Shown: positions 7,333 through 34,959 of the stretch, in pieces
Numbering within the stretch: the first letter of the stretch is position 1
How the letters are laid out: each line of letters begins with the position of its first letter
Notes under the pieces: model-generated
Told to the model about the DNA's origin: nothing
Database searches by the model: none
The model's input: only the letters and a program-made list of their open reading frames with translations
From: an uncultured Bacteroides sp.
Lineage (GTDB): Bacteria > Bacteroidota > Bacteroidia > Bacteroidales > Bacteroidaceae
Assembly: GCA_900553815.1 (NCBI GenBank)
Contig: USEY01000030.1
Span: forward strand, 1 to 38,975
Length of the DNA: 38,975 nucleotides
Direction: 5' to 3'
Position numbers and translations under genes: made by a program

Positions 7333-7442
7333 AGTGAACTACTAACAGGTTACCAGTGGACTACTATCAGGTAAGCAGTGAACTACTATCAAACAAGCAG
7401 TGGACTACTATCAGACAAGTAGTGGACTGCTATCCTTTCTAC
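7333..7442. repeat. Tandem array, 5 units of 22 bp (family A)
   Basis: Five head-to-tail units start at 7333, 7355, 7377, 7399 and 7421, each exactly 22 bp. Every unit begins AGTGRACT, a dyad of AGT and ACT around two bases, followed mostly by ACTATCA. The last seven or eight positions vary. The array lies between the terminator of the skp unit and the murI promoter. The same unit type reappears at 24743-24852. The units are contiguous with no unique spacer, so it is not a CRISPR array. Confidence 0.9.
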
Positions 7443-7907
7443 TTACTACTGCATCAGCTTACAGGCACATAAAAGGAACAGTTGCAAGATGCTTGCTGCG
7501 CAACCTGACAATTTTCAGAGACACTCCCCCCAATCTGATAGGTGAACTATATGAAAGAGTCACAATATTACCTACCCTACACCGTACTAAATATCCCCTT
7601 TCCGCATTGAAGTTTCACACCTTCACGGAAAAATTTAACCGTCTGACATGTAGATAAATACGGTGAAAGATTCACCCCACACCATCATTCACGCTCCACC
7701 GCTTCAACTCTATCCTTCACCACAAAGTATTCATTTTCAACGTATAGCTGTGAAACTTCACCCGAACAACTCCCTTTTCTCCCTCCGTGAAACTTTATGT
7801 TTCTTCTTTCACCCTTTCCAAAAGAATTACTTGACATCACTATGACTTTGAGGGACGTCTTCAAAAGATTTCAGCCAACGGACACGAAGATTTCGACCCA
7901 TAATGTG
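7443..7907. other. Long intergenic tract with degenerate TTCA/GTGAA motifs
   Basis: No gene is supported in this stretch. From about 7600 to 7830 the sequence is rich in TTCAC and GTGAA. Several are paired as small dyads, such as GTGAAAGATTCAC near 7670 and GTGAAACTTCAC near 7751. TTCA recurs roughly every 13-15 bases between 7685 and 7735. This looks like a decayed repeat array related in style to the cleaner arrays elsewhere, but the period is not exact. Confidence 0.4.
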
Positions 7908-7915
7908 TAACTTTG
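7908..7915 (+). promoter_or_regulatory. -7 promoter element for murI
   Basis: TAACTTTG is a perfect TAnnTTTG, 40 bases before the murI ATG. It implies that murI is transcribed separately from the upstream envelope unit. Confidence 0.7.
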
Positions 7916-7955
7916 CGCTACGACGGCGCATCCTAAAAAAACGCTGCAAGAAGAC

Positions 7956-8813
7956 ATGAACAATCAGCAAATCCCACTCCCCCTGCCGCAGGCAGCTGGC
8001 CCCATCGGTGTGTTCGACTCAGGCTACGGTGGCCTGACCATCCTCAGCAAGATACGCGAGGCCTTGCCTCAGTACGACTACATCTACATAGGCGATAATG
8101 CACGTGCACCTTACGGTACGCGCTCTTTTGAGATAGTCTACGAATTCACGCGAGAGGCCGTCATAAAACTGTTTGAAATGGGATGCCACCTTGTCATACT
8201 GGCCTGCAACACGGCATCGGCCAAAGCCCTGCGCAGCATACAGATGAACGACCTGCCCGGTCTTGACCCACAACGCCGTGTGTTGGGCGTCATCCGCCCT
8301 ACGGTGGAGTGCATAGGCAGCCTTACGCATAGCCGCCACATAGGCGTGCTGGCCACTTCGGGCACCATCCTGTCCGAATCCTACCCCATGGAGGTACGCA
8401 AGCTGTTTCCTGACATTGAGGTCAGCGGACAGGCCTGCCCCCTTTGGGTACCCTTGGTTGAAAACAACGAAGCAGCCTCGGAAGGTGCCGACTATTTTGT
8501 GAAGAAATACATTGATGAGCTGTTGGCGAAAGACCACCTGATAGATACCGTCATCTTGGGTTGCACCCACTATCCGCTATTGCTGCCCAAGATAAGGCAA
8601 TACATGCCGCAGGATATCACCATCGTGTCGCAAGGCGAGCTGGTGGCACAAAGCCTGAAGGACTATCTGCGACGCCACCCCGAAATGGAGAAACGCTGCA
8701 CCCGCGGCGCCACCTGCCAATATTGCACCACCGAGGCCGAAGACAAGTTCAGTGCCTCGGCCGCCACGTTCCTCAACGAGTTGGTATCGGTCAGACATAT
8801 TGACTTCATGTAA
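7956..8813 (+). CDS. murI: Glutamate racemase
   Basis: A cytoplasmic cofactor-independent racemase of 285 residues that makes D-glutamate for the peptidoglycan stem peptide. It shows the substrate loop IGVFDSGYGGLT (residues 17-28). The two catalytic cysteines are in ILACNTAS (Cys84) and ILGCTHYP (Cys203). The motif DNARAPYG is also present. The length is normal for the family. The start is the ATG 40 bases after a clear -7 element. A four-Cys stretch near the C-terminus (RCTRGATCQYCTTEAEDKF) is unusual for MurI and could be a small metal or redox site, or may simply reflect lineage variation. It converges on the response regulator gene at 9045 across 231 bases of heptad repeats. Confidence 0.96.
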   Translation: MNNQQIPLPLPQAAGPIGVFDSGYGGLTILSKIREALPQYDYIYIGDNARAPYGTRSFEIVYEFTREAVIKLFEMGCHLVILACNTASAKALRSIQMNDLPGLDPQRRVLGVIRPTVECIGSLTHSRHIGVLATSGTILSESYPMEVRKLFPDIEVSGQACPLWVPLVENNEAASEGADYFVKKYIDELLAKDHLIDTVILGCTHYPLLLPKIRQYMPQDITIVSQGELVAQSLKDYLRRHPEMEKRCTRGATCQYCTTEAEDKFSASAATFLNELVSVRHIDFM

Positions 8814-8821
8814 ATAACAGT

Positions 8822-8849
8822 GGTGAATGGTAAGTGATAAGTGGTAAGC
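8822..8849 (+). repeat. Heptad repeat array, forward orientation
   Basis: Four consecutive 7-mers follow the murI stop: GGTGAAT, GGTAAGT, GATAAGT, GGTAAGC. A weaker one (TAACAGT) precedes them. They match the consensus of the arrays at 29171, 32957 and 33341. Confidence 0.75.
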
Positions 8850-8970
8850 ACTCGGAATCCTTTAGACGCGGATAATGCAGATGAAGCGGATTATTATTTA
8901 TTGAACAAGGAGAGTTCTGGGAAAGGTTGAGATTTTAAGGTATTGGAGTATTCAGTCCGCCATACCCACG

Positions 8971-9041
8971 ACCGACCGCCTATCACTGATTTTCCGCCGG
9001 ATGGCCGCTTATCATTGACCGCTCACCACTAACCGCTGAAA
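8971..9041 (-). repeat. Heptad repeat array, reverse orientation
   Basis: Read on the + strand, the 7-mers ACCGACC, GCCTATC and ACTGATT are followed, after a one-base slip, by GCTTATC, ATTGACC, GCTCACC, ACTAACC and GCTGAAA. These are reverse complements of the forward heptads at 8822-8849. The pair therefore forms a loose inverted repeat in the gap between the convergent murI and response-regulator genes, and may serve as a bidirectional stop. Confidence 0.65.
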
Positions 9042-9044
9042 AAA

Positions 9045-10427
9045 TCAGCATTCTATCCCATAAAGTTTCAGCTTGTTATACAGCGTCTTGCGGTCGATGC
9101 CCAGCAACAGGGCTGCACGGCTCTTGTTGTAGCCCGTCTGCTTCAAGGCTTCCACAATGCGCTGCTTTTCTGTCTCCTCATTGCGCAGCGCCATGCTGAC
9201 TGGTTGTGGAGGAACCACTTGCAAGTCTCCCATGTCGTCCAGCGTGATGTACTTGCCCTGCGCCAACAGGGTAGCTCTACGTACCACGTTCTTCATCTGG
9301 CGCAGGTTGCCCGGCCAGTGATAGTCCAACATGGCACGTGACACCTTTTCGTCAAAGCCCACCACCTGCTTGTCCATCTCGCGATTGGCTTGGTCGAGAA
9401 AGAACTTGGCAAAGAGCAAGATGTCCTCACGACGGTCTTTCAGCTGAGGAATGCGCAAGGTAAACTCATTAATGCGGTGATAGAGGTCTTCGCGGAAGGC
9501 ACCCCGCTCAATGGCCTGTTCCAGGTTCTCATTGGTGGCCGACACCAGGCGCACGTCTACGCTGATTTCACGCGTGGAACCTACGGGCCTGATGATGCGC
9601 TCCTGCAACGCACGCAGCAGCTGCACCTGCACTTCGTAGCTCAGGTTGCCTATCTCATCAAGGAAAATAGTGCCGCCATTGGCCGCTACAAAAGCCCCCG
9701 TCTTGTCGCTCAACGCACCCGTAAAGGCACCCTTTACGTGGCCAAAGAACTCCGACGCCGCCAGTTCCTTGGGAATGGCACCGCAATCAATGGCAATGAA
9801 CGGCTTGTCGGCCCGCTTACTCAGGCTATGAATGCGGTGGGCCACGTATTCCTTACCCGTTCCGCTGGCTCCATTCACCAACACCGACATGTTGGTAGGG
9901 GCCACCAGTCTGACGTAGTTGTATAGCTGCCGAGCAGCCTCGCTCTCGCCCTCCAGATATTCCGACCACGCGGCGGCAGCCGGCTTCAGGTCGGCGGCAA
10001 CGGCACGTTCGGCCTTTGCCGAGACAGGTGTTGCACCCACACTCTCGGTGGCCGTTTTGCGTTTGGGAGCAGCCTTCAGGGCCTCTTCCATTTTCTTCAG
10101 CAGTTCCTCCGGGTTCACCGGTTTGGCAATGTAGTCCGACGCCCCCTCCTTCATGGCCATCACGGCCGACTGAATGTCAGCATAGCCCGTCATGATAATC
10201 AGGGGAATAAACAGCTCCTTCTGCCCCAGCCAGCGCAAAAGGTCCAACCCATCGCGATCGGGCAGACGCAGGTCAGACAAAATCAAGTCGGGCTCTTCCG
10301 TCTCAATGAGCTTCTGGGCACGTGCAATGCTGCTGGCCGAATTCACAACGAACCCTTTCTTAGCCAACCATGTTTTCAGCATCATGCCATACGTAATGTC
10401 ATCTTCTACTATCAAAACCGACTTCAT
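9045..10427 (-). CDS. Sigma-54-dependent response regulator (NtrC family)
   Basis: A 460-residue activator with three domains. The receiver is at residues 1-120 (VEDD acidic pocket, phospho-acceptor Asp52 in ILSDLRLPD). The central AAA+ domain has Walker A GASGTGKE, the sigma-54 contact loop GAFTGA and Walker B TIFLDEIG. The C-terminal Fis-type helix-turn-helix ends in DRKTLYNKLKLYGIEC. It is therefore expected to activate RpoN promoters after phosphorylation. I start it at MKSVLIVEDD (10427); ATG 10433 is possible. A GTG at 10457 is excluded because it overlaps the -7 element TACCTTTG. No kinase is adjacent. The hybrid kinase with an HPt domain at 14148-16559 is the nearest candidate phosphodonor (inference). 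Confidence 0.93.
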   Translation of the reverse strand: MKSVLIVEDDITYGMMLKTWLAKKGFVVNSASSIARAQKLIETEEPDLILSDLRLPDRDGLDLLRWLGQKELFIPLIIMTGYADIQSAVMAMKEGASDYIAKPVNPEELLKKMEEALKAAPKRKTATESVGATPVSAKAERAVAADLKPAAAAWSEYLEGESEAARQLYNYVRLVAPTNMSVLVNGASGTGKEYVAHRIHSLSKRADKPFIAIDCGAIPKELAASEFFGHVKGAFTGALSDKTGAFVAANGGTIFLDEIGNLSYEVQVQLLRALQERIIRPVGSTREISVDVRLVSATNENLEQAIERGAFREDLYHRINEFTLRIPQLKDRREDILLFAKFFLDQANREMDKQVVGFDEKVSRAMLDYHWPGNLRQMKNVVRRATLLAQGKYITLDDMGDLQVVPPQPVSMALRNEETEKQRIVEALKQTGYNKSRAALLLGIDRKTLYNKLKLYGIEC

Positions 10428-10456
10428 TGCCATTCCTTTTCGTTTCTTTTGTTTCA

Positions 10457-10464
10457 CAAAGGTA
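10457..10464 (-). promoter_or_regulatory. -7 element for the NtrC-family regulator gene
   Basis: On the minus strand this reads TACCTTTG, a perfect TAnnTTTG, 30 bases before the regulator start at 10427. It decides the start codon, because the upstream GTG lies within it. It is paired back-to-back with the element at 10485-10492. Confidence 0.65.
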
Positions 10465-10484
10465 AAGGGTTTAGCCGAAAATCG

Positions 10485-10492
10485 TATATTTG
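10485..10492 (+). promoter_or_regulatory. -7 element for the cyclophilin gene
   Basis: TATATTTG is a perfect TAnnTTTG, 27 bases before the cyclophilin start codon. With the divergent element at 10457-10464, only 20 bases separate the two -7 boxes, so the two promoters must occlude or co-regulate one another. Confidence 0.7.
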
Positions 10493-10518
10493 CAGACTTA
10501 AATTAAACAAAAAGACAG

Positions 10519-11355
10519 ATGAAAAGGCATTTTATAGTAGTATTAACCTTACTGGCCTGCACGCTTGTTGCCTGCAAGCCGGGACAAAAAAAGAACAATA
10601 TGGAAAAAGAAACAATGCTGAAAATTGAAACTACCGCCGGCGACATCGTGGTGAAACTTTATGACGAAACGCCCAAGCATCGCGACAACTTCATCAAGCT
10701 GGCTGAAGACGGCACCTACGAGGGAACGCTCTTCCACCGCGTCATCAAGGACTTCATGATACAGGCAGGCGACCCCGAGTCAAAAAACGCACCCAAGGGC
10801 AAGATGCTGGGCGCAGGCGACGTGGGCTACACGCTTCCGGCCGAGTTTGTCTACCCCAAATACTTCCACAAGCGCGGTGCCTTGTCGGCCGCACGCCAGG
10901 GCGACAATGTGAACCCCAAAAAAGAATCGTCGGGCTGCCAGTTCTACATCGTCACAGGTAAGGTCTACAACGACTCTACCCTGCTGAGCATGGAGCACCA
11001 GATGAACCAGATGAAGCTGAACAATGCCTTCAACGCACTGGCACAGCAGCACATGAAGGAAATCTACAAGCTGCGCAAGGCTGGCGATCAGGAGGGTCTG
11101 ATGAACTTGCAGGACACGCTGATAGCACAGGCCGAAGCACAAGTGGCCAACGAACCCGAATTTCGCTTCACACCCGAGCAGGTGAAGGCCTACACCACCG
11201 TGGGCGGTACTCCGCACCTGGACGGCGAATACACCGTGTTTGGCGAAGTAGTGGAAGGAATGGACGTGGTCGACAAGATACAGCAAGTGAAGACCGACCG
11301 CAACGACCGCCCCGAACAGGACGTGAAGATTCTGAAGGTTGAGGTAATTGAATAA
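10519..11355 (+). CDS. Cyclophilin-type peptidyl-prolyl isomerase, lipoprotein
   Basis: A 278-residue periplasmic or membrane-anchored prolyl isomerase. The signal ends in the lipobox L-V-A-C (Cys19). The cyclophilin core starts near residue 33 (LKIETTAGDIVVKLYDETPKH) and contains the active-site segment FHRVIKDFMIQAGDP (catalytic Arg). Further core motifs are GALSAARQG and SSGCQFYIV. The core is then interrupted by about 75 residues of charged helix (from roughly residue 155 to 230, NDSTLLSMEHQMNQMKL onward). It resumes with YTTVGGTPHLDGEYTVFGEVVEGMDVVD. The insertion has no counterpart in E. coli PpiA or PpiB and may be a chaperone arm. The gene is divergent from the response regulator and followed by a large hairpin. 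Confidence 0.93.
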   Translation: MKRHFIVVLTLLACTLVACKPGQKKNNMEKETMLKIETTAGDIVVKLYDETPKHRDNFIKLAEDGTYEGTLFHRVIKDFMIQAGDPESKNAPKGKMLGAGDVGYTLPAEFVYPKYFHKRGALSAARQGDNVNPKKESSGCQFYIVTGKVYNDSTLLSMEHQMNQMKLNNAFNALAQQHMKEIYKLRKAGDQEGLMNLQDTLIAQAEAQVANEPEFRFTPEQVKAYTTVGGTPHLDGEYTVFGEVVEGMDVVDKIQQVKTDRNDRPEQDVKILKVEVIE

Positions 11356-11371
11356 AAGCAATAAAGTAGAT

Positions 11372-11427
11372 GCCGGCCTGCTCTTAGTAAGTTTATAGGG
11401 CTTTACTTTCTAAGCCAGCTCGCCGGC
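11372..11427 (+). promoter_or_regulatory. Long imperfect hairpin after the cyclophilin gene
   Basis: GCCGGC (11372-11377) pairs with GCCGGC (11422-11427). Inner pairing between the flanking CTGCT/AGTAAG and CTTTACT/AGCCAG stretches extends the stem. No clean T-run follows, so this could be a weak terminator or a processing site between the cyclophilin and peptidase genes. Confidence 0.5.
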
Positions 11428-11464
11428 TGATTAATACTTTACTACTTCAATACTTTAAACAAAC

Positions 11465-12700
11465 ATGTTCGACATCAACCGACATACGCTGGACAATGGG
11501 CTAAGGCTGGTGCACTGCCAGGACACGAGCACACAGATGGTGGCGCTCAACATTGTCTACGACGTGGGTGCCCGCGACGAGCACCCCGACCACACCGGCT
11601 TTGCCCATCTGTTTGAGCACCTCATGTTTGGCGGTTCGCTCCACATCCCCGACTACGACACCCCCATGCAACAGGCGGGAGGCGAGAACAACGCGTGGAC
11701 CAACAACGACATCACCAACTACTACCTCACCCTGCCACGGCAAAATGCCGAGATAGGCTTCTGGCTCGAATCGGACCGCATGCTCCAGCTGGTCTTCAGC
11801 CTGCAGAGTCTTGAGGTTCAGCGCAGTGTGGTGAGCGAGGAGTTCAAGCAACGCTGCCTCAACCAACCTTACGGCGATGTCGGACACCTGCTCCGCCCCT
11901 TGGCCTACCACGTGCATCCCTACCAATGGCCTACCATCGGCAAGGAGCTGTCGCACATAGCGCAAGCCACGCTCGACCAGGTGCGCGACTTCTTCTACCA
12001 CCACTATGCGCCCAACAATGCTGTACTGGCCGTCACCGGCAACATCAGCTGGGACGAAGCCCGACGCCTTACGCAGAAGTGGTTCGGTCCCCTGCCCGCC
12101 CGGCAGATAGCCCCGCGCCGCCTGCCACAGGAACCGCCGCAGACCGAGGAACGTCGCCTCACCGTGGAGCGGCCCGTTCCCCTCGACGCCCTCTTCATGG
12201 CTTTCCATACCTGCCGCCGCGACGAGCCCGACTACTACGCTACCGACATTCTGTCTGACATTTTGGCCAATGGCCGTTCCAGCCGCCTCATCCGTCGCCT
12301 GGTGCACGAGCAGAAGCGCTTCTCGAGCATCGACGCCTACATATCGGGCAGCCGCGACGCCGGCCTCATCTACATCAGCGGCAAGCCTGCCCCCGGCACC
12401 TCGCTGAACGAGGCGGAAGCCGCCATACGCGAAGAATTGGAGCAACTGCGCCAGCAGCCCGTGGACGAGCGCGAACTGGAGAAGGTGAAAAACAAGTTCG
12501 AATCTACCCAGATATTCAGCAACATCAACTATCTGAACGTGGCCACCAACCTGGCATGGTTTGAACTGACGGGGCGCGCCGAAGACATCGACCGCGAAGT
12601 GGAGCGCTACCGTGCCGTCACGCCCGAGCAACTGCAACAGGTGGCCAACCGGATATTCAGCCGCGAAAACGGCTGTGTGCTGCACTATAGAAAACAATAA
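11465..12700 (+). CDS. M16 family zinc metallopeptidase
   Basis: A 411-residue single-module member of the insulinase/processing-peptidase family. The inverted zinc motif HLFEH is at residues 48-52 (His48, Glu51, His52), and the distal zinc ligand Glu lies in the conserved VVSEEFKQR segment about 75 residues later. The C-terminal M16_C domain follows, with the usual ANGRSSRLIRRLVHEQ and ISGKPAPG motifs. There is no signal peptide, so it should act in the cytoplasm, probably on short peptides. Many bacteria encode an active and an inactive M16 half side by side. Here no partner is adjacent, so it may be a homodimer. Confidence 0.92.
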   Translation: MFDINRHTLDNGLRLVHCQDTSTQMVALNIVYDVGARDEHPDHTGFAHLFEHLMFGGSLHIPDYDTPMQQAGGENNAWTNNDITNYYLTLPRQNAEIGFWLESDRMLQLVFSLQSLEVQRSVVSEEFKQRCLNQPYGDVGHLLRPLAYHVHPYQWPTIGKELSHIAQATLDQVRDFFYHHYAPNNAVLAVTGNISWDEARRLTQKWFGPLPARQIAPRRLPQEPPQTEERRLTVERPVPLDALFMAFHTCRRDEPDYYATDILSDILANGRSSRLIRRLVHEQKRFSSIDAYISGSRDAGLIYISGKPAPGTSLNEAEAAIREELEQLRQQPVDERELEKVKNKFESTQIFSNINYLNVATNLAWFELTGRAEDIDREVERYRAVTPEQLQQVANRIFSRENGCVLHYRKQ

Positions 12701-12757
12701 ACCGAACAGGAAAGTAGCTAACCGAGAACGAACAAACTGGAAATCATTAAAATAGAA

Positions 12758-14104: not shown

Positions 14105-14147
14105 GCCCACGCAAACAATATATTCCTCCATCAAAAAACAACCGTCC

Positions 14148-16559
14148 ATGAACAACGTCTCCAAACTCAAAATCATACTTGGCTACGGCGCCCTGCTGGC
14201 CTTCTTGTTCTACTCGCTGTTCTTCGTCCGCCGCGAGATGGACCGTCTGCTGCAATCGGGCACCGCCGACGTGCAATGGACCGATAGCCTTTTCAGCCTG
14301 CTGCGCGAGAAGGACAAAAACACCCTGAACCTGCTGCGCACCCTGAGCACGGCCAACGACAGCATGCTGTCAACCTACGACATCAAGCGAGTCATTGCCA
14401 CACAAGACACCGTCATACCTCAACGACGCATCCAGCGACGTGTCATCACCCACCGCGACACCATTGTCACCCCCAAGAAAAAGAAAGGCTTCTTCCGTCG
14501 ACTCAAGGAAGCTTTCGTGCCACCCAAGAAAGATTCCAGTGTCAACGTGAAGAACACGTTGGAGTTCGTGGTCGACACCATCATCGAAACCTACAATCCT
14601 GTAGACTCCCTGCAACGCCGCCTACAGGAAATGTCGGAAGCACGCAAGGAAGAAAACCGCCAGGCCGAACGACGCAAGCGAAGCCTGCAACGACGCAACT
14701 CGCAACTCACAGCCCGTATTGACAGCATGCTACACAATTACGAAACCATCACCATGGAACGTGCCCTGCAGGAAAGTGAACGCCGACAGACGGCCATCCA
14801 CCGCTCGGCCACCACGGTGGGTAGCATTGCCGTGGGCGCTGTGGTATTGGCAGCCCTGTTTCTCTTTATCATCATACGCGACGTTACACGCAGTAACCGC
14901 TACCGCCGCCAGTTGGAAGAAGCACGCCGCAAGGCTGAAGACCTGCTGGCCACCCGGGAAAAGCTGATGTTGGCCATTACCCACGACTTCAAGGCTCCTC
15001 TGGGTTCTATCATGGGCTATGCCGACCTGTTGAGCCACCTTATCGTGGACAAGCAGCAGCAGTTCTACCTGGACAATATGAAGGTGTCGTCCGAGCACTT
15101 GCTGAAGCTGGTCACCGACCTGCTCGACTTCCATCGTCTGGACCTCCACAAGGTGGAAATCAACCGTGTCAGCTTCACGCCTGCACAAATGTTTGAAGAC
15201 ATACGTGTCAGCTTCGAACCCCTGACCGCCGCTAAAGGACTGACCCTGCATTGCGACATCGCCCCCGAACTGAACGATACTTACCAGAGCGACCCTCTAC
15301 GCCTGAAGCAGATAGTGAACAACCTGTTGTCCAACGCCGTGAAGTTTACTTCACATGGCAGCATCACCCTGTCTGCCCATTGCGAACAGGTGCTGGGCGG
15401 CGAACGGGCTGGCAACCGCCTCATCCTGTCCGTGGCCGACACGGGGCAGGGCATGAAACCCAGCGACCGCCAGCGCATCTTCCGCGAGTTCACCCGCCTG
15501 CCGGGCGCGCAGGGCGAGGAAGGTTTCGGGCTTGGTCTGTCCATCGTTCAGATGCTGGTACAGCTGCTTAGAGGTACCATCACGGTAGATAGCGAACTGG
15601 GCAAGGGCAGCACCTTCACCGTCGATCTGCCCCTGCACCGTATCGACACAGCTGTGGGCAACGACCGCAAGAAGGCAGCCGCCTCTGAAGCCGCGCCATC
15701 AGCTCCGCGTCCTGCCGACCACTTGCAACCACGACGCCTGCTACTCATCGACGACGACCGCATACAACTGACCCTCACCGCCGCCATGTTGCAACAAAAT
15801 GGCTTTGAAGCTGTCACCTGCCTGCAAACCGACGAATTGCTCGACGCTCTGCGCACAGGCCACTTCCTGGCACTACTAACCGACGTGCAGATGCCGGCCA
15901 TTAACGGCTTCGACCTGCTCAAGCTGCTGCGAGCATCCAACGTGGGACAGTCGCGCACGCTGCCCATCATTGCCGTCACGGCACGCAGCGACATGGAGCG
16001 CGACGACTTTGTGGCACATGGCTTTGCCGGTTGCCTGCACAAACCCTTCAACATGCAGGAGCTGTTGCAGGAATTGGAGCGTGTTTTCAATCAAAAAGAT
16101 GGCCAGCCTACCACTTCCGTCAAGGCCGAATTACCCGCAAAAGCTTCAGAAGCAAACGAAAATTCGCCAACCAAGGCCGCCAATTCATCCTCTGCACCTG
16201 AAACCACGCAACAAGCCGATGCCATCAACCTGTCTGCACTCACCGCTTTTTCGGGCGATGATGAGGAAGCAGCACGCGACATTTTGAACAGCTTCATGGA
16301 AGAAACAGATAAAAATATCGAACGATTAAAACAAGCTATTGACCAGTCCGATACGGAAGTCATATCGGCCGTAGCTCACAAGATGCTGCCGCTCTTTACC
16401 CTCATCGGTGCCAACTCGCTCACCGTCCTGCTGCGTACGCTCGAAGCCACACGTTTCACACCTCATACGCCTCAACTCGACGACACAGCCCGACAGGCAT
16501 TGGCTAAAGCTCAAAACATCCTCGACACCTGCCGCAAACAGATGGCAGGGAGCAACTGA
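14148..16559 (+). CDS. Hybrid histidine kinase with receiver and HPt domains
   Basis: An 803-residue inner-membrane sensor. TM1 (about 9-27) and TM2 (about 222-246) enclose a roughly 195-residue extracytoplasmic region rich in Arg and Glu helix. The dimerisation domain carries phospho-His279 in MLAITHDFKAPLG, and the ATPase has N-box NNLLSNAVKFT, ADTGQGM and GLGLSIV. The receiver has Asp579 in LLTDVQMPAINGFD. An Ala/Ser/Pro/Thr-rich linker leads to a C-terminal HPt domain with His744 (AVAHKMLP). The chain His-Asp-His is complete, so the protein needs only an external response regulator. The NtrC-family regulator at 9045-10427 has no adjacent kinase and is the closest candidate. No DNA-binding domain is fused. 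Confidence 0.95.
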   Translation: MNNVSKLKIILGYGALLAFLFYSLFFVRREMDRLLQSGTADVQWTDSLFSLLREKDKNTLNLLRTLSTANDSMLSTYDIKRVIATQDTVIPQRRIQRRVITHRDTIVTPKKKKGFFRRLKEAFVPPKKDSSVNVKNTLEFVVDTIIETYNPVDSLQRRLQEMSEARKEENRQAERRKRSLQRRNSQLTARIDSMLHNYETITMERALQESERRQTAIHRSATTVGSIAVGAVVLAALFLFIIIRDVTRSNRYRRQLEEARRKAEDLLATREKLMLAITHDFKAPLGSIMGYADLLSHLIVDKQQQFYLDNMKVSSEHLLKLVTDLLDFHRLDLHKVEINRVSFTPAQMFEDIRVSFEPLTAAKGLTLHCDIAPELNDTYQSDPLRLKQIVNNLLSNAVKFTSHGSITLSAHCEQVLGGERAGNRLILSVADTGQGMKPSDRQRIFREFTRLPGAQGEEGFGLGLSIVQMLVQLLRGTITVDSELGKGSTFTVDLPLHRIDTAVGNDRKKAAASEAAPSAPRPADHLQPRRLLLIDDDRIQLTLTAAMLQQNGFEAVTCLQTDELLDALRTGHFLALLTDVQMPAINGFDLLKLLRASNVGQSRTLPIIAVTARSDMERDDFVAHGFAGCLHKPFNMQELLQELERVFNQKDGQPTTSVKAELPAKASEANENSPTKAANSSSAPETTQQADAINLSALTAFSGDDEEAARDILNSFMEETDKNIERLKQAIDQSDTEVISAVAHKMLPLFTLIGANSLTVLLRTLEATRFTPHTPQLDDTARQALAKAQNILDTCRKQMAGSN

Positions 16560-16630
16560 CCGCCGCATAACCGTCGGCAATCATATTCTTACGACACGGT
16601 TCTTTCATTGTTAAAGCAAGGTTTCATATC

Positions 16631-16740
16631 AGTTTCAACGGGTAAAACCGTTAGTTTCAACGGATGAAACCACCAGTTTCAACGGATGAAACTACCAGTT
16701 TCTGCGGATGAAACCATTAGTTTCTGCGGATGAAACTAAA
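16631..16740. repeat. Tandem array, 5 units of 22 bp (family B)
   Basis: Five contiguous 22-bp units start at 16631, 16653, 16675, 16697 and 16719. The core is AGTTTCAACGGATGAAAC, with CTG replacing CAA in the last two units, followed by four variable bases. AGTTTC and GAAACT form an inverted repeat across a 7-base centre in each unit, so a transcript could fold into five small hairpins in a row. It lies between the hybrid kinase and tamB. The flanking GTTTCATATC suggests a decayed sixth unit. Confidence 0.92.
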
Positions 16741-16890
16741 CTGTTCTGACGGAGATGCCAGCTGAAGCTCGACTGTTTGCAGTTTTTTCTGCCTGACGGC
16801 AAATGGGCGGATAGGATACTTTAAGCGAAAGAGTCCAGTTTTACGCAACTTTTTGTGCCTGCCCAAGGAATATATCTCAAATATAATTGT

Positions 16891-23952: not shown

Positions 23953-24639
23953 ATGGAAAAACTCACCATCAACCAGTGGGCGGAAGAAGATCGCCCCCGC
24001 GAGAAAATGATGCTCAAAGGAGCAGAAGCCCTGAGCGATGCCGAGCTGCTGGCCATACTCATAGGCTCGGGAAACACCGAAGAGAGTGCCGTAGCCCTGA
24101 TGCAGCGTGTGCTGGCCGCTGCCGGAAACGACCTGAACCGACTGGGGAAATGGGAGATACGCGACTTTGCCCGCTTCAAGGGACTGGGACCCGCCAAAAG
24201 CATCACCATACTGGCTGCCCTCGAACTGGGCAAACGCCGCAAGCTGCGCGAACATGCCGAACGGCTCACCATCCGCAGTTCGGAAGACATCTATCACCTG
24301 TTCCACCCTCTGCTCTGCGACCTGCCCTACGAAGAATTCTGGGTTCTGTTGCTCAACCAAGCCGCCAAGGTAATAGACAAGGTACGCATCAGCCGCGGCG
24401 GCATAGACCAGACCACAGCCGACGTGCGCTCCATTCTGCGCGAAGCACTGCTGCAACGGGCCACGCAGATAGCCCTCGTCCACAACCACCCTTCGGGCAA
24501 CACACGCCCCAGCAACGACGACTTGCGCCTGACACAACAGGCCCGACAATCCGCACAAACCATGAACATACGCCTGCTGGACCACGTCATCGTAACCGAC
24601 GGCAGCTACTACAGCTTCTGCGACGAAGGTCGGCTTTAA
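23953..24639 (+). CDS. radC: RadC family JAB/MPN-domain protein
   Basis: A 228-residue protein. The N-terminal part is a helix-hairpin-helix-like region (residues about 10-85, EKMMLKGAEALSDAELLAILIGSG, then FKGLGPAKSITI). The C-terminal JAB1/MPN domain has the metal-binding motif LVHNHPSG (His177, His179) and the downstream Asp in NDDLRLT. The family was once linked to DNA repair, but its true function is unsettled. The same frame is open about 690 bases further upstream inside tamL, but the ATG at 23953, just after the tamL stop, gives the normal family length and start sequence. It is the last gene of the tamB-tamL unit. Confidence 0.95.
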   Translation: MEKLTINQWAEEDRPREKMMLKGAEALSDAELLAILIGSGNTEESAVALMQRVLAAAGNDLNRLGKWEIRDFARFKGLGPAKSITILAALELGKRRKLREHAERLTIRSSEDIYHLFHPLLCDLPYEEFWVLLLNQAAKVIDKVRISRGGIDQTTADVRSILREALLQRATQIALVHNHPSGNTRPSNDDLRLTQQARQSAQTMNIRLLDHVIVTDGSYYSFCDEGRL

Positions 24640-24742
24640 GATCTCCCACCCGACATACAGTCCTATCCTTCAACGTCTTCCGTCTACAGCAAGCCACCTC
24701 TTGATTCATTCCACAAAGTGTCTTGACAGCATGGTTGATAGC
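24640..24742. other. Short intergenic tract before the 22-bp array
   Basis: Nothing recognisable lies here: no hairpin with a T-run after radC and no gene. The tract is C+T-rich. Together with the array and the promoter region it makes a 436-base gap before the next gene. Confidence 0.4.
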
Positions 24743-24852
24743 AGTTAACTCCTCTCATGTTAGCAGTCCACTGCTATCGCGTCAGGAGTTAACTGCTATC
24801 ACGTTAGGAGTGGACTACTAATACGTAAAGAGTTAACCGCTATCAAACAACC
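24743..24852. repeat. Tandem array, 5 units of 22 bp (family A, second locus)
   Basis: Five contiguous 22-bp units start at 24743, 24765, 24787, 24809 and 24831. The first eight bases are AGTTAACT, AGTCCACT, AGTTAACT, AGTGGACT and AGTTAACC. These keep the AGT..ACT dyad while the two central bases change. AGTCCACT in unit 2 is the exact reverse complement of AGTGGACT in unit 4. The following GCTATC matches the family A array at 7333-7442, about 17 kb away. The array lies between radC and the nucleotidyltransferase gene. Confidence 0.9.
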
Positions 24853-26147: not shown

Positions 26148-26179
26148 TTTGAATATGTCATACTTTCTTTCTTACTTTG
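26148..26179 (+). promoter_or_regulatory. Promoter (-33 TTTG and -7-like box) for the BACON-glycosyltransferase gene
   Basis: TTTG (26148-26151) and TTACTTTG (26172-26179) are separated by 20 bases, close to the Bacteroidota -33/-7 arrangement, with one mismatch in the -7 box. The gene starts 33 bases later. Confidence 0.55.
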
Positions 26180-26211
26180 TAGCATTGTGAATCTTACTTT
26201 CAAGCTACCAC

Positions 26212-27687: not shown

Positions 27688-27737
27688 CAGACTTCTATCG
27701 GACAGCAATAATTCTGAATATATTCAACGTAAGAAAC

Positions 27738-28153
27738 ATGATACTACAAACCGAATTCAGCCTACGCCCGCGCCGACGTGGCTTCCACCTGGTCACGGGC
27801 GAGATTCTGCAACAGCTACCCACACCGTTGCCACAGACGGGAGTGCTTCACCTCTTTGTAAAGCATACCAGCTGTGCTCTGTCGGTCAACGAAAATGCCG
27901 ACCCCGATGTCCGCTCGGACATGGAAAAGATATTCAACCACTTGGTTAAGGAAGGAGAGCCCTACTACGACCACACACTGGAAGGGCTGGACGACATGCC
28001 GGCACATGCCAAGTGTACGCTGGCGGGCGTCAGCCTGACGCTGCCCATCAGCCACGGACGGCTGAACCTGGGCACTTGCAGGGCATCTACCTGTGCGAGT
28101 TTCGCGACGAAGGCGGACCGCGCCGCATAGTGGCCACAGTAATGGGTGAATAA
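27738..28153 (+). pseudogene. yjbQ: YjbQ family protein (thiamine phosphate synthase-like), frameshifted
   Basis: The first 113 codons encode a normal YjbQ (UPF0047) core, including the conserved VKHTSCALSVNENADPDVRSD segment and GRLNLGT. At 28077-28079 the reading frame then breaks, giving a nonsense tail that stops at 28130. Reading one base over from 28079 restores QGIYLCEFRDEGG and ends in ATVMGE at 28153, exactly what the family should have. Insertion of one G after 28078 would recreate the invariant-looking GTWQG and a product of 138 residues, the usual length. YjbQ proteins have weak thiamine-phosphate synthase activity. This is either a genuine one-base deletion or a sequencing error. 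A start at 27675 is also open, but the ATG at 27738 matches the family. Confidence 0.88.
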
Positions 28154-28170
28154 GAGCAGAATCCCGTGGT

Positions 28171-29160: not shown

Positions 29161-29170
29161 AGGTGACAGG

Positions 29171-29226
29171 GGTTAGTGATAAGTAGTTAGTGATAAGCGG
29201 TTAGTAGTTAGTGGTCAGCGGTAAAT
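29171..29226 (+). repeat. Heptad repeat array, 8 units
   Basis: Eight 7-mers run in perfect register: GGTTAGT, GATAAGT, AGTTAGT, GATAAGC, GGTTAGT, AGTTAGT, GGTCAGC, GGTAAAT. The array lies 10 bases upstream of the start codon of the minus-strand glycosyltransferase gene, so on that transcript it would form part of the 5' leader or intercistronic RNA. Confidence 0.88.
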
Positions 29227-29250
29227 TCTTTATTCTTAACTCTTCATTTC

Positions 29251-30540: not shown

Positions 30541-30564
30541 GCTGACCTGTATTCCAAACCGAGT

Positions 30565-32223
30565 TTAAGCCTTCTTTTCCTTCTCGCGAATCTCCACACG
30601 ACGAATCTTTCCGCTGATGGTCTTGGGCAGTTCGTCCACAAACTCAATGACACGCGGATACTTATAAGGTGCCGTTACCCGCTTCACGTGGTTCTGAAGC
30701 TCCTTGATAAGGTCGTCGCCTGCCTTGTCCTTGTAAGCCTTCGACAAGACAATGGTAGCCTTGACCACCTGTCCGCGGATTTCGTCTGGCACACCCGTAA
30801 TGGCACATTCCACCACTGCCGGATGGGTCATCAGCGCGCTCTCCACCTCGAACGGGCCAATGCGGTAACCGCTACTCTTGATGACATCGTCGGCACGACC
30901 CACAAACCACAGGTAGCCGTCTTCATCACGCCAGGCCACGTCGCCCGTGTAGTAGATGCCATCGTGCCAAGCCTCGCGGGTACGCTCAGGAGCACGGTAG
31001 TATTCCTTGAAGAGCCCCAACGGTTTACCCTTGTCGGTGTGGATAACAATCTGTCCCTGTTCACCAGCCTCTACCGAACGGCCCTCGCTGTCAATCAGGT
31101 CGACGTCGTATTGCGGATTGGGCAAGCCCATGCTGCCGGGTTTCGGCTCCATCCAAGGCATGGTGGCCACGGTCAGAGTGGTTTCCGTCTGTCCAAAGCC
31201 TTCCATCAGCTTGATGCCGGTCAGTTTCTTAAAGGTATCGAATACGGCCGGGTTGAGTGCCTCGCCCGCAATGGTGCAATATTGCAGCGACGAGAGGTCA
31301 TACTTCGTCAGGTCTTCGTGAATGAGGAAGCGGAAGATGGTAGGCGGCGCACAGAGTGAAGTAACGTGGTAGTCCTGAATCTTCTTGAGAATATCGGCCG
31401 GCGTAAACTTCTCATGGTCATAGACAAAGACATTGGCTCCGGCAATCCACTGGCCGTAGAGCTTGCCCCACACAGCCTTGCCCCAGCCCGTATCGGCTAT
31501 GGTCAGGTGCAGGCTGTTTTCGTGCAGGTTGTGCCAGAACACACCTGTTACGATATGACCCAGCGGATAAGTAAAGTCATGAGCCACCATCTTGGGTTCG
31601 CCCGTAGTACCGCTGGTGAAATACATCAACGAAATATCATCGTTCGTGTTCGGATGCTCCGGCTTGACAAACGGTGCGGCAGCCTCAATGCCTTTGTGGA
31701 AGTCTTCGTAGCCTTCGGGCACTTCGGGACCTACACTGACCAGACATTTGACACTGGGCGACTCGGGCATAGCGGCAGTGATGTGGTCGGTGATGACTGT
31801 CTCGCCGGCACAAACTATCATCTTGATGTCGGCCGCATTACAACGATAGACGATGTCTTTCTTTGTCAGCAGGTGAGTGGCGGGAATGACAACCGCTCCC
31901 AGCTTGTGCAGTGCAATGATGCTGAACCAGAACTCGTAGCGACGCTTCAGAATGAGCATCACCATGTCGCCGTGACCAATGCCCAGACTCTGGAAGTAGC
32001 TGGCCGTCATGTCGGTATAGCGCTTCATGTCGGCAAACGTAAACTGGCGGTGCTCACCCTTGTCGTTGGTCCAGAGCAAAGCGGGTTTGTCGGGCTGTTC
32101 GGCTGCCCAAGCGTCTACAACATCGTATCCGAAGTTGAAGTTATCGGGTACATTAATCTTCAGGTTCTCTATAAAGTCCTGTTGAGAAGTAAATGTGGTT
32201 TGTTTGAGAAATCGTTCTAACAT
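30565..32223 (-). CDS. AMP-forming acyl-CoA synthetase
   Basis: A 552-residue member of the ANL adenylate-forming superfamily, of the acetyl-/medium-chain acyl-CoA synthetase type. The AMP-binding P-loop [11 protein letters not shown] is at residues 201-211. EGFGQTETT and the hinge segment [25 protein letters not shown] follow, then the C-terminal catalytic Lys539 in ISGKIRR. It activates a carboxylate with ATP and joins it to CoA. The chain length is not predictable by eye. Upstream lies an XRE-cupin regulator with 170 bases between them, and downstream a lipid A deacylase. A long inverted repeat in the upstream gap could attenuate its expression. Confidence 0.93.
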
Positions 32224-32244
32224 AATGATAAAGAATGTATGTTT

Positions 32245-32383
32245 GGAGTTAAAGGGAGTTAGAGGGAGTTATCGCCCGCCTTGGCGGACTTGGGAGTTAA
32301 AGGCCAAATGTCTTGCTAATGACTTTTAACTTCTAAACGGAGCGTCAGCAAAGTGATAACTCCCTTTAACTTCCTCTAACTCC
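32245..32383. repeat. Inverted repeat made of 10-bp units, before the acyl-CoA synthetase gene
   Basis: On the left (32245-32272), GGAGTTA occurs three times with a 10-bp period. The right arm (32356-32383) is its near-perfect inverted copy (28 positions, three or four differences). Inside are a CCGCC-TT-GGCGG hairpin (about 32276-32287) and a further pair of GTTAAAG/CTTTTAAC-type arms. The whole 139 bases fold on themselves and fill the gap between regulator and synthetase. It could be an attenuator, a terminator or a small MITE-like insertion. Confidence 0.8.
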
Positions 32384-32393
32384 TTCTAAAAAA

Positions 32394-32942
32394 TTACATG
32401 ATTATCGCCAGGAAGCGCACCGTCTTTCCGTCGAGTGCCTTCATTCCATGGGGCAGCAATGAATTGAAGTAGATGCTGTCGCCCGGATTCAGCATCAGTT
32501 CCTTGCCGCCAATGCTGAGCAGCAGTTTGCCTTCGATGACAAGGTTGAACTCCTGTCCTTCGTGCGTATTGTAGTGCATGGGGTTGTCGTTGGGCTCCAC
32601 GGTGACGATGAACGGGTCGGCTTTGCGGTTCTTGAAGCCGGCAGCCAGCGACTGGTACTTATAGGCTTTGGTACGCTCCACACTCACCCCCTTACCGGCA
32701 CGGGTCAGGAAGTAAGTGTTCATCTTGGGCTCTTCACCAAACATCAGGGCGTCGAGCGAAATGCCGTAATGACGCGCTATCTGCTGCAACATGCTGACCG
32801 ATATGTCATGCTCGCCACTCTCGGCACGCTCGTATTCATCCTTATCGATGCCACACTCGTTGGCTATGTCGTTGGGAGTAAGCTCCATGGCGTCGCGCAA
32901 GCCGCGCAAGCGCTCTGCTATCTGTTTAATCTGTTCGTCCAT
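32394..32942 (-). CDS. XRE-family regulator with cupin sensor domain
   Basis: A 182-residue transcription factor. Residues about 8-62 form an XRE helix-turn-helix (TPNDIANECGIDKDEYERAE). Residues about 105-180 form a small cupin barrel (MHYNTHEGQEFNLVIEGKLLLS and LNPGDSIYFNSLLPHGMKAL), the usual metal- or ligand-binding sensor. Such regulators often control the adjacent metabolic gene. Here that is the acyl-CoA synthetase on the same strand, so fatty-acid or acyl-CoA sensing is a fair guess. Heptad repeats occupy the region directly upstream of its start. Confidence 0.92.
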   Translation of the reverse strand: MDEQIKQIAERLRGLRDAMELTPNDIANECGIDKDEYERAESGEHDISVSMLQQIARHYGISLDALMFGEEPKMNTYFLTRAGKGVSVERTKAYKYQSLAAGFKNRKADPFIVTVEPNDNPMHYNTHEGQEFNLVIEGKLLLSIGGKELMLNPGDSIYFNSLLPHGMKALDGKTVRFLAIIM

Positions 32943-32956
32943 AAGTAAGATATAAT

Positions 32957-32998
32957 GGTTAATGATTAATGGTTAATAGTTAATGGTTAATGGTTAAT
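32957..32998 (+). repeat. Heptad repeat array, 6 units, overlapping the end of the four-helix-bundle gene
   Basis: Six 7-mers are in register: GGTTAAT, GATTAAT, GGTTAAT, AGTTAAT, GGTTAAT, GGTTAAT. The last two supply the stop codon and the final Ile-Asn-His of the four-helix-bundle protein read on the minus strand. A matching array in the same orientation begins at that gene's start codon (33341). Confidence 0.92.
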
Positions 32999-33340
32999 AC
33001 TTTGTTTGGCTGTCTTGATGCTTGCTGTAATTATCTTCATAAGTTCAGAAGCATCCTCGTTTATACTTTCATAAGCATTTTGGCTTATATAGTCAGTCAT
33101 ATACAAGAGTTTCAACCAATATAGGGTTTCGTTCGCTTCCTTTTGGGCAATAGACAGTTTATGTATAAAGTCCGATTTGCTTTCACTATGTTCGCTTTCA
33201 CTGACCATGGCTCCTATGGATGTCCCCGAACGAAGAATTTGTTTGGAAAGAATAAGTTCCTTCTTTTCTTCATTCAGATATTTGTATAGCTTTACTATCC
33301 TTATTGCGAAATTAAAACTTTTATCCTTTAACAAATTCAT
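32987..33340 (-). CDS. Four-helix-bundle protein (23S rRNA intervening-sequence type)
   Basis: A 117-residue all-helical protein. FNFAIRIVKLYKYL, ILRSGTSIGAMVSESEHSESKSDFIHKLSIAQKEANETLYWLKLL and ASELMKIITASIKTAKQ match the S23/IVP four-helix-bundle family. Its members were first seen inside intervening sequences of 23S rRNA genes and are related to the Avd protein of diversity-generating retroelements. The role of free-standing copies is unknown; a basic pentameric nucleic-acid-binding barrel is known for relatives. Heptad arrays abut both the start codon and the stop codon, and the last three residues come from the repeat. This suggests the gene arrived as a unit. No reverse transcriptase or template repeat is nearby. 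Confidence 0.9.
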   Translation of the reverse strand: MNLLKDKSFNFAIRIVKLYKYLNEEKKELILSKQILRSGTSIGAMVSESEHSESKSDFIHKLSIAQKEANETLYWLKLLYMTDYISQNAYESINEDASELMKIITASIKTAKQSINH

Positions 33341-33424
33341 GACTAATGACCAATGATTAATGGTGAATGATTAATGATTAATGGTGAACGCTTAATTGGG
33401 AATGATTAATGGCTTATGATAAAT
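33341..33424 (+). repeat. Heptad repeat array, 12 units
   Basis: Twelve 7-mers in unbroken register begin at the base next to the start codon of the four-helix-bundle gene: GACTAAT, GACCAAT, GATTAAT, GGTGAAT, GATTAAT twice more, GGTGAAC, GCTTAAT, TGGGAAT, GATTAAT, GGCTTAT, GATAAAT. Its last 17 bases (33408-33424) are complementary to 33450-33466 with two mismatches, giving a strong hairpin on the proC transcript. Confidence 0.92.
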
Positions 33425-33442
33425 CTTTTCACCGCGCAGCCT

Positions 33443-33477
33443 ATTAACCATTTATCATTAACCATTAACCATTAAAC
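33443..33477 (-). repeat. Heptad repeat array, 5 units, reverse orientation, at the proC stop
   Basis: On the + strand ATTAACC, ATTTATC, ATTAACC, ATTAACC and ATTAAAC run in register. These are inverted copies of the neighbouring heptads. The final unit includes the proC stop codon. Pairing with 33408-33424 could end proC transcription. Confidence 0.88.
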
Positions 33478-34248
33478 TACACTGATTTTGATTGCATTGA
33501 TGAGTGCCGACGTAAATCCGTCGTGCTCCAGCTGGTTGATGCCCTTGATGGTCAGTCCGCCAGGCGTGCACACCTTGTCAATCTCTACGCTGGGATGCGT
33601 ATCGTTGGCCAGAATCAGCTCGGCCGCACCTTTCAGCGACTGGGCCACCATCCGCATGCCGTCCTTCGGACGTACACCCAGTTCGATGCCGGCCTGCATG
33701 GCTGCCTGTATGTACTTCAGCGCGTATGCAATGCCACACGAGGTCATAGCCGTAGCGGCAGCCATCTTCTCTTCGGGAATAAGCATGGCCAGTCCCATCT
33801 CACTGAAGATGTCCAGCACCAGCTGTATCTGCTCCTGGCTGGCCTGGCTACACGACACCAGCGTCATACTCTGCATTTCGCTGATAGCCGTGTTGGGTAT
33901 TACACGGAAGAGCGGATTTCCTTTCTGCCCCAACAATTGCCACAGGTCGCCTAGTTTGATGCCAGCAGCTATGGAGATGAGCATCTGAGTCTCTTTCAGT
34001 TGCAGTTTATTCAACACTTCACCCACCAGCCAAGGCTTGACAGCCAGCACCACGATGTCGGCACCGGCCACGGCTTCACTGTTGTCGGAAGTTACCTGCA
34101 TGTCAGGGAACTCGGCCTTCAGAGCCTCTAGCTTGCCCGGCGAAGGATTGGACACTCTGATGTCCTCCACCCTTACCAGACTTCCCTTGGCAAGTCCACG
34201 GGCTATGGCTCCGCCCATGTTTCCTGCCCCTATTATCGCTATTTTCAT
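33472..34248 (-). CDS. proC: Pyrroline-5-carboxylate reductase
   Basis: A 258-residue NAD(P)H-dependent enzyme for the last step of proline synthesis. The Rossmann motif IIGAGNMGGAIARGL is at residues 4-18. VVLAVKPWLVGEVL and VIPNTAI follow, and the C-terminal dimerisation and active-site segment CTPGGLTIKGINQLEHDGF is complete. The length is slightly short compared with about 265-270 residues, but all motifs are present. Promoter elements lie upstream on its strand (34277-34284), back-to-back with those of the DUF6078 gene. Its stop codon falls inside a heptad repeat. Confidence 0.95.
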   Translation of the reverse strand: MKIAIIGAGNMGGAIARGLAKGSLVRVEDIRVSNPSPGKLEALKAEFPDMQVTSDNSEAVAGADIVVLAVKPWLVGEVLNKLQLKETQMLISIAAGIKLGDLWQLLGQKGNPLFRVIPNTAISEMQSMTLVSCSQASQEQIQLVLDIFSEMGLAMLIPEEKMAAATAMTSCGIAYALKYIQAAMQAGIELGVRPKDGMRMVAQSLKGAAELILANDTHPSVEIDKVCTPGGLTIKGINQLEHDGFTSALINAIKISVV

Positions 34249-34276
34249 CTGTTTCTCTGTTAAGTTAATGTCCTTG

Positions 34277-34284
34277 CAAAAGTA
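34277..34284 (-). promoter_or_regulatory. -7 element for proC
   Basis: On the minus strand this reads TACTTTTG, a perfect TAnnTTTG, 28 bases before the proC ATG. A TTG about 20 bases further upstream may be the -33 element. Confidence 0.65.
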
Positions 34285-34327
34285 ATCCTTTCCTTGCGTA
34301 AGTGCAAGGTTTTCCCGACAGATTGAT

Positions 34328-34335
34328 TATATTTG
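34328..34335 (+). promoter_or_regulatory. -7 element for the DUF6078 gene
   Basis: TATATTTG is a perfect TAnnTTTG, 18 bases before the ATG at 34354. It contains the in-frame TTG at 34333, so that codon cannot be the start. With the proC element it forms a divergent pair. Confidence 0.65.
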
Positions 34336-34353
34336 TCTGCAAAAACAAATACT

Positions 34354-34803
34354 ATGATAACAGTTAGTTTCGATTATTCGCAGGTTCCGACTTCTTTTGT
34401 ACATTGTTTCAACTCCGACTGCCCGCTGGCCGACAGCTGTCTGCGTCGGTTGGCGGCAAACCAGGTCACAGCCCGGCAAAAGGTTATACAGACCATCAAC
34501 CCTGCTGTTTGGCCTGCTCAGGAGACACAAGCCCAATGCCCTCACTTCCTCCCCATGAAAACCATACGCCTGGCCTGGGGTATGCGAAATGCCCTGAACC
34601 TAATGCCTCACCAACAGGCTCAGGGCATCATCCGTGCGCTGAACTGCATGTACTCCCGCCCCACCCTGCATCGCATCATGGTATGCCAGCGCGAAATACC
34701 TCCCCGAGAACAAGTGCAGATTGAAGCCCTGTTCCGCCGTTACGAATGGACGGGCGAACACCCTTTCGACCGCGTAGAGTGGCAATACGACTTCCGTGGT
34801 TGA
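34354..34803 (+). CDS. DUF6078-type Cys-containing protein
   Basis: A 149-residue soluble protein with a conserved-looking cysteine pattern: Cys18, Cys23 and Cys29 (HCFNSDCPLADSC) and Cys62 in QCPHF. This would suit a zinc or iron-sulfur site. The rest is helical and Arg-rich, with SRPTLHRIMVCQREIP and RRYEWTGEHPFDRVEWQYDF near the end. It resembles the uncharacterised DUF6078 family of Bacteroidales. There is no signal peptide. The start is the ATG 18 bases after a perfect -7 box, which implies a very short leader. A 22-bp repeat array follows the stop. Confidence 0.75.
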   Translation: MITVSFDYSQVPTSFVHCFNSDCPLADSCLRRLAANQVTARQKVIQTINPAVWPAQETQAQCPHFLPMKTIRLAWGMRNALNLMPHQQAQGIIRALNCMYSRPTLHRIMVCQREIPPREQVQIEALFRRYEWTGEHPFDRVEWQYDFRG

Positions 34804-34849
34804 CTTCAGCCGACACTAAAGCGGTATTCACACTCTGTTCCATATAGTT

Positions 34850-34959
34850 TGAAACAGTGTTTCAGTCCGCATGAAACAATGTTCCATAACGTGAGAAACA
34901 ATGTTTCAGATTTGGAGAAACAATGTTTCAATAGCGCTGAAACAAAATGAAACAACCTG
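34850..34959. repeat. Tandem array, 5 units of 22 bp (family C)
   Basis: Contiguous 22-bp units start at 34850, 34872, 34894, 34916 and 34938 (the last one decayed). A degenerate sixth unit at 34828-34849 keeps CTGTTCCATA. The core is TGAAACAATGTTTCA, a near-perfect palindrome of 7+1+7, followed by seven variable bases. It shares the GAAAC/GTTTC elements of family B but with different spacing. It lies between the DUF6078 gene and the convergent toxin gene. Confidence 0.9.

Follow-up and report, generated by a model that had tools for sequence, protein, structure and literature searches.

Intergenic tandem arrays that share a 22-bp pitch, and not a sequence, across Bacteroides

Results

Four arrays in one contig

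The window analysed here is the whole 38,975-nucleotide stretch of contig USEY01000030.1 (assembly GCA_900553815.1) from an uncultured Bacteroides sp., whose predicted proteins include BamI, PorG, UppS, TamB, Omp85 proteins and a POTRA protein, a content like that of a Bacteroides chromosome, and in which four tandem arrays of 22-bp units lie in the gaps behind genes (Table 1). Tandem Repeats Finder (TRF) calls all four with a period of 22 and 4.4–4.9 copies, as the initial annotation of this DNA had proposed, and none of 200 dinucleotide-shuffled versions of the window yielded an array that combined a score of at least 70, 2.5 or more copies and a period of at least 10, the top score at such periods being 67. 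Each array lies 45–156 bp past the stop codon of a plus-strand gene, in agreement with the downstream location first described.

Table 1. Coordinates of the four arrays and of adjoining genes in the window.
Feature	Extent	Strand	TRF call	Copies	TRF score	Description
OmpH/Skp-like gene	6670..7176	+				Upstream of array 1
Array 1	7332..7441	+	7332-7434	4.7	122	Five 22-bp units, consensus CAGTGGACTACTATCAGACAAG; imperfect dyad AGYAGT-N2-ACTRCT; family of array 3
Hybrid histidine kinase gene	14148..16559	+				Upstream of array 2
Array 2	16630..16753	+	16630-16736	4.9	130	Five 22-bp units GTTTC-N7-GAAAC-N5, plus one decayed unit; member of family G
Predicted gene	23953..24639	+				Upstream of array 3; codon-based gene caller only
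Array 3	24739..24848	+	24739-24845	4.9	88	Five 22-bp units; dyad AGNAGT-N2-ACTNCT
DUF6078 gene	34333..34803	+				Upstream of array 4
Array 4	34836..34957	+	34850-34945	4.4	72	About five 22-bp units GAAACA-N-TGTTTC-N9
Next called gene after array 4	35127-35468					Convergent to the DUF6078 gene

The arrays fall into three sequence families, as had been noted, and are not the four independent arrays that were first claimed: arrays 1 and 3 are homologs that align at 72% over 109 bp (E 3e-17), within the array only, and no other pair of window arrays gives a significant alignment. Arrays 2 and 4 have the half-site GTTTC/GAAAC in common, at spacings of 12/10 in array 2 and 8/14 in array 4. The dyad that had been ascribed to every unit is found in arrays 2, 3 and 4 (p = 0.01, 0.02 and 0.01 by column permutation, for which 0.01 is the floor with 100 permutations), and is imperfect and not significant in array 1 (p = 0.27). 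At positions 114–200 a possible fifth, decayed 22-bp array is called under relaxed TRF settings (4.0 copies, score 77).

A period of 22 across the genus

An architecture shared without shared sequence, which the initial annotation had suggested from the window, is real and genus-wide. The Bacteroides-group DNA surveyed (1.80 Mb: the window, 42 related loci and two 400-kb stretches from B. fragilis and B. oleiciplenus) contains 62 intergenic tandem arrays, of which 43 have a period of 21–23, and every other period accounts for five arrays at most; the 42 loci represent one orthologous region, and some of these arrays are therefore orthologs. Other periods are thus far from equally frequent. The B. 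fragilis stretch has nine arrays, and in 400 kb of B. cellulosilyticus 11 of 15 arrays have a period of 22–23. The proportion with a period of 21–23 is 5/20 in an order-level sample (20 stretches, 394 kb), where two of the five look by eye like dyad arrays (loci L125 and L135), and 0/5 in a phylum-wide sample of 400 kb; neither sample is large or reaches beyond the surroundings of TamB genes, and some of the phylum-level stretches may come from Bacteroidales, so that the range is a first estimate.

Two dispersed families

The TTTACC-type pattern that defines family T matched in 7 of 8 genomes, with no match to the reversed control, and a stricter version matched in 7 of 60, again with an empty reversed control; B. 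fragilis has 37 site pairs. In the 24 loci (20 fetched and four more), whole arrays have been copied, with unit order kept and common flanks, and unit number is 4–6. No neighbouring gene is common to the T loci, and the few homologous neighbours between loci occur mostly in pairs. Successive GTAA[AC] sites are exactly 22 bp apart in 108 of 122 cases and at least 39 apart in the remaining 14, the half-site offset is 13 in 104/105, and an additional TTTAC lies exactly 11 bp away in 11/107 intervals.

Substitutions are spread unevenly over the unit in family T, the one family in which this was tested. Counted over the four final units of each copy (12 copies from B. oleiciplenus and 11 from B. 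fragilis, with L116, which nearly duplicates L115, excluded), the arms are nearly invariant, with 1/432 and 2/396 disagreements respectively, whereas loops (46/384 and 61/352) and linkers (26/240 and 45/220) vary. The T and G search patterns include the arms, and arm constancy is in part ascertained; since three T pattern positions outside the arms did vary (3, 0, 0 and 5, 5, 13 disagreements), ascertainment accounts for part of that constancy at most.

Of 60 genomes, 19 contain family G (GTTTC-N7-GAAAC twice, at a pitch of 22), against three matches in a single genome for the reversed-pattern control. The pattern recovers array 2 of the window, which has three exact site pairs, and reaches 49 pairs per genome (B. 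cellulosilyticus; 26 in B. faecis). Twenty loci were fetched, 13 from B. cellulosilyticus and seven from a second genome, taken to be B. bouchesdurhonensis. Their pitch is 22 in 67/80 intervals and 23 in 6/80, and flanks look unrelated between loci by eye. The copy number of about five first reported for the window recurs in B. cellulosilyticus, where 11 of 13 G arrays have five units in register and the remaining two have eight and four, and is not strictly kept elsewhere, as the T copies and the second G genome show. Both families are almost free of indels, which bears out the constraint on length that had been proposed; local amplification, proposed with it, is not sufficient alone, given the dispersal of G and the copying of T as whole arrays.

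The 50 G loops of B. cellulosilyticus fall into no more than 20 distinct forms, where the null gives a mean of 43.8 and a minimum of 35. These forms recur between loci in scrambled order and in both orientations, while linkers, by eye, do not follow them (L174–L186). A swap of arms with retention of loops, suggested by loops that G and T appeared to share, was dropped, because the overlap is within what position-wise composition predicts (8 against a null mean of 4.7, maximum 10; 4 against 3.6, maximum 5); between the two G genomes the overlap is 2 against 2.9 under the composition null. Exact matches to the T pattern are also seen in eight viral contigs, and to the G pattern in two (L214–L223).

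Unrelated arrays at orthologous positions

B. oleiciplenus and B. cellulosilyticus could be compared over a collinear stretch of 194 kb with 62 anchors and 83% identity. Five of its 12 B. oleiciplenus arrays of period 20–24 have an orthologous B. cellulosilyticus gap shorter than 4 kb, and of these gaps three hold an array of different sequence and two none detected, absence being uncertain in two gaps where the B. cellulosilyticus sequence is partly N. In the reverse direction, 3/5 comparable B. cellulosilyticus arrays face an array in B. oleiciplenus. Two cases are clear (gaps of 173 and 203 bp, and of 430 and 707 bp), with units of TTGCCA-N6-TGGCAA opposite unrelated units, so that the sharing of architecture without sequence extends to orthologous gaps. 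The third case is a weak 22-bp array of B. oleiciplenus (227150–227560 of the joined stretch, L074) that occupies the centre of a long inverted repeat, itself MITE-like (miniature inverted-repeat transposable element). In the theta group, one slot has an array of ACTATAGT in two species and, by eye, an array of TTCCTCACCGAGGAA in another, with none seen in the others.

Position relative to genes

With a codon-based gene caller, 77 arrays were placed: 66 in gaps, 8 inside genes and 3 at edges. The gap arrays divide by orientation into 26 ++, 14 --, 17 +- and 9 -+, and fetched T copies contribute 18 of these, family copies not being independent in this test. Once the 20 family G arrays, none of them divergent, are added to the 66, divergent gaps are under-represented (9/86 arrays against 26.8% of available space, P = 1.7e-4), as they are without family G (9/66, P = 0.008), and convergent gaps hold 23/86 against 18% of space (P = 0.03). 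In codirectional gaps, 28 of 40 arrays are closer to the end of the upstream gene. A terminator-like hairpin lies between gene and array in 28/84 stretches and in 50/237 controls, an unmatched comparison in which controls were read across 120 bp only and array stretches across 25–500. Between the OmpH/Skp-like gene and array 1, a long-looped, terminator-like stem with a T-run can be seen by eye at ~7218–7270; the hairpin scan, which allowed loops of 3–8, did not list it. In the Mediterranea group, a 23-bp array is kept at one place behind a terminator-like stem in four loci.

The gene for an NtrC-like regulator, homologous to that at 9045–10457 of the window, provides a case within coding sequence: its linker is longer by 22 residues (66 bp, three units) in six species (L001, L003, L005, L006, L039 and L041, ~3280–3703), other relatives having the short form. 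No other observation speaks as strongly for a mutational component in the origin of such arrays.

Dyads, folding and phasing

Among 45 arrays of period 21–23 (the 43 TRF arrays, less one partial duplicate and two of low complexity, plus five added by hand), 23 have a dyad at p<=0.05, several of these being copies of one family. The core pairs of the 23 dyad arrays comprise 430 modal pairs, 32 one-side changes, 11 compensated changes and 5 changes on both sides without pairing. Mispairs on the sense strand in codirectional gaps number 19 G.T against 26 A.C, and without a G.T excess there is no sign of selection on RNA. Mean unit-dyad energy is above -2 kcal/mol in 13 of the 23 arrays; folded as a whole, the 23 exceed mononucleotide shuffles in stability (mean z -4.9), as is expected for any row of palindromes. 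The constraint on pairing that had been proposed is therefore better read as one on palindromic half-sites of double-stranded DNA, which fit the lack of a G.U bias, the weak stems and the incidence of dyads better than hairpins do.

A G+C phasing of about 11 bp, which would be expected of an analogue of the gyrase-binding BIME-2 (bacterial interspersed mosaic element), reaches p<=0.05 in 8/45 arrays, three of them of family T, and general gyrase-like phasing is unsupported beyond a few families. Edge units are not significantly more diverged than central ones (0.709 and 0.733, p = 0.20), as edge decay by unequal crossing-over would have them.

Other features of the window

The window Omp85 gene is nearest, among five genomes compared, to its Mediterranea massiliensis homologue (75%). 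Heptad tandem repeats of TAATGGT, ATTAATG and ATTAACC (32953–32998, 33335–33412 and 33443–33475) surround a gene for a 23S rRNA-intervening-sequence protein at 32987–33340, and a 21-bp unit, AGTAGTTAGTGATAAGCGGTT, is present in two intergenic copies at 29182–29222.

Discussion

Several computed results have to be accommodated together: the fixed pitch, the constancy of T half-sites, the dispersal of T and G, the scarcity of arrays in divergent gaps, and the unrelated arrays at two orthologous slots. Constant half-sites, a pitch nearly free of indels, further half-sites at a distance of one helical turn and the absence of an RNA signature argue for double-stranded DNA bound by protein in family T, and in family G, which is less tested. 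The reading we favour, tentatively and at somewhat less than even odds, is that each array lines up palindromic sites in double-stranded DNA at intervals of about two helical turns, that proteins bind these sites, and that the arrays have spread by copying, with turnover of sequence at fixed slots. The sites would be operator-like, a few per array and frequently about five, with two inverted half-sites per unit in the dyad families, and the 22-bp repeat would align bound protein dimers on one face of the DNA. The binders would act in trans, probably with a different protein for each family. The most likely purpose would be organisation or insulation of the chromosome behind genes, as with BIMEs in E. 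coli, and spread may occur by ectopic copying or conversion, with B. fragilis family T perhaps moving as a MITE. What holds for T and G may extend to arrays 1, 3 and 4 of the window by architecture only.

A number of observations weigh against this reading. No binding protein emerged from the analysis; about half of the arrays have no significant dyad, among them the 23-bp array of the Mediterranea group, and the G+C phasing is weak. The seven G arrays of the genome taken as B. bouchesdurhonensis have 3, 5, 3, 6, 7, 4 and 6 units, and this less constant unit number lowers the probability of bound sites and raises that of neutral duplication. Patterns for the family of arrays 1 and 3 matched in 0/399 and 0/80 genomes, although the patterns do recover arrays in the window (the 399-genome pattern array 1 only). 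With a cruder call of genes based on open reading frames in the 1.80 Mb set, no clear position bias appears, and the dependence among family copies in the position test, the ascertainment of T and G arms and the NtrC-like arrays within coding sequence, which fit a mutational origin, count on the same side.

The main rival is that the arrays are neutral minisatellites, in which replication or recombination duplicates stretches of about 22 bp in tolerant gaps and linkers, dyads favour slippage, and no protein is bound. We consider this rather unlikely, with substantial points in its favour: the NtrC-like linker expansion, the eight of 77 arrays inside called genes, the 22 of 45 arrays without a significant dyad, the filling of the same slot by unrelated sequences, and the range of 3 to 8 units in family G. 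Neutral duplication fits poorly with T arms that stay constant while loops and linkers differ by 11–20%, with the near absence of indels in T and G, with the dispersal of families and with edge units that are not clearly more diverged, and duplication alone does not explain a period of 22.

A stronger form of the protein-bound reading would hold that slots behind genes keep an array of two-turn pitch whatever its sequence, that families and their matching binders are lineage-specific, and that replacement of a family rewrites the arrays at the same slots. We regard this as unlikely; were it true, the arrays would be a chromosome element of conserved architecture and replaceable sequence.

Still less probable is that the arrays belong to MITE-like non-autonomous elements with an internal minisatellite, as in BrickBuilt, the array being a part that the transposase needs. 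Besides the copying of T arrays with unit order kept, this draws on the common flanks of the B. fragilis T copies, which end in inverted repeats resembling GGTTCATCCGNNNAATGCGTAG, in some cases present twice at one end (L110–L120, by eye), and on the B. fragilis genome, where 11 of 13 matches to that inverted-repeat pattern sit in T copies. The window arrays do not fit, the longest inverted repeat flanking them being 10–14 against 11–15 at 30 random positions, with no common flanks; likewise, three B. oleiciplenus TTGCCA arrays that were compared are alike in the array alone and not in the flanks.

That the units act as RNA hairpins at transcript 3' ends, in termination or mRNA stability, is suggested by their place behind genes and by the folded stability of the arrays; we reject it as very improbable, given the lack of a sense-strand G.T excess, the weak unit stems, the terminator-like hairpin that already precedes the array in a third of the stretches and the absence of an Rfam match in the window. 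REP (repetitive extragenic palindromic) families go with a gene for a RAYT (REP-associated tyrosine transposase), and movement of the arrays as REP/BIME elements by such a Y1 transposase, which would suit palindromic, extragenic arrays behind genes and between convergent genes and the Y1 gene (PF01797) present in three genomes rich in T copies, is the least credible explanation and is rejected, being largely refuted for B. fragilis, since that gene is absent from 6/9 related genomes (present in 5/21 of a genus draw), with no match in B. fragilis, B. cellulosilyticus or B. faecis despite their many T or G site pairs, and since seven Y1 loci (L161–L163 and L087–L090; 2.1–3.3 kb each, at most ~1.5 kb per side), scanned for T and TTGCCA and not for family G, hold no such array and one single-site T match.

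If the arrays are indeed rows of protein-bound sites, they would constitute a large class of chromosomal sites in a major gut genus, of the order of a hundred per genome when extrapolated from the B. fragilis stretch, and one that standard repeat searches miss because these look for shared sequence and not for shared pitch. It would then be asked which proteins read the arrays, and whether they serve to organise or insulate the chromosome or are only its parasites; the rewriting of a dispersed site family between sister species offers a natural test case.

In the literature, judged by titles and abstract openings and with most subscription papers outside the search, we found no report of such arrays in Bacteroides. 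Iterons and tandem operators are direct repeats of about 22 bp, in few copies and with helical phasing, and iterons are located at replication origins beside a Rep gene; the Bacteroides arrays, in contrast, are many per chromosome and lie behind unrelated genes.

REP and BIME elements are described as palindromes outside genes that lie at the ends of genes or between convergent ones, frequently in clusters, each REP family having one sequence and most a GTAG/CGTC end (PMC3733652, PMC1525189, PMC6379681), and BIME-2 binds gyrase (PMC6379681). The Bacteroides arrays are likewise extragenic, palindromic and found at gene ends and between convergent genes; they differ in that unit sequence changes while pitch is kept, a fixed 22-bp pitch being no part of the REP definition in those accounts.

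The closest known system is BrickBuilt of Porphyromonas gingivalis, also of the Bacteroidales, with 23-nt tandem units that are always intergenic, imperfect copies, mention of dyads and one case said to sit behind a terminator; 22-, 23- and 41-nt repeats are mentioned for P. gingivalis W83 (PMC4596501). BrickBuilt is there a single sequence family of 1 to 22.8 copies, with a leader and tail that carry IS5-type inverted repeats, and is reported only from P. gingivalis and P. gulae (PMC4596501). Membership of the window arrays in BrickBuilt is not supported, as they have no leader or tail with inverted-repeat ends, and inspection by eye showed similar terminal inverted repeats in family T of B. 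fragilis alone. The two systems have intergenic tandem units in common, at a pitch of 22 in Bacteroides and 23 in BrickBuilt, and where BrickBuilt is one family, the Bacteroides arrays form many, usually of 3–8 copies.

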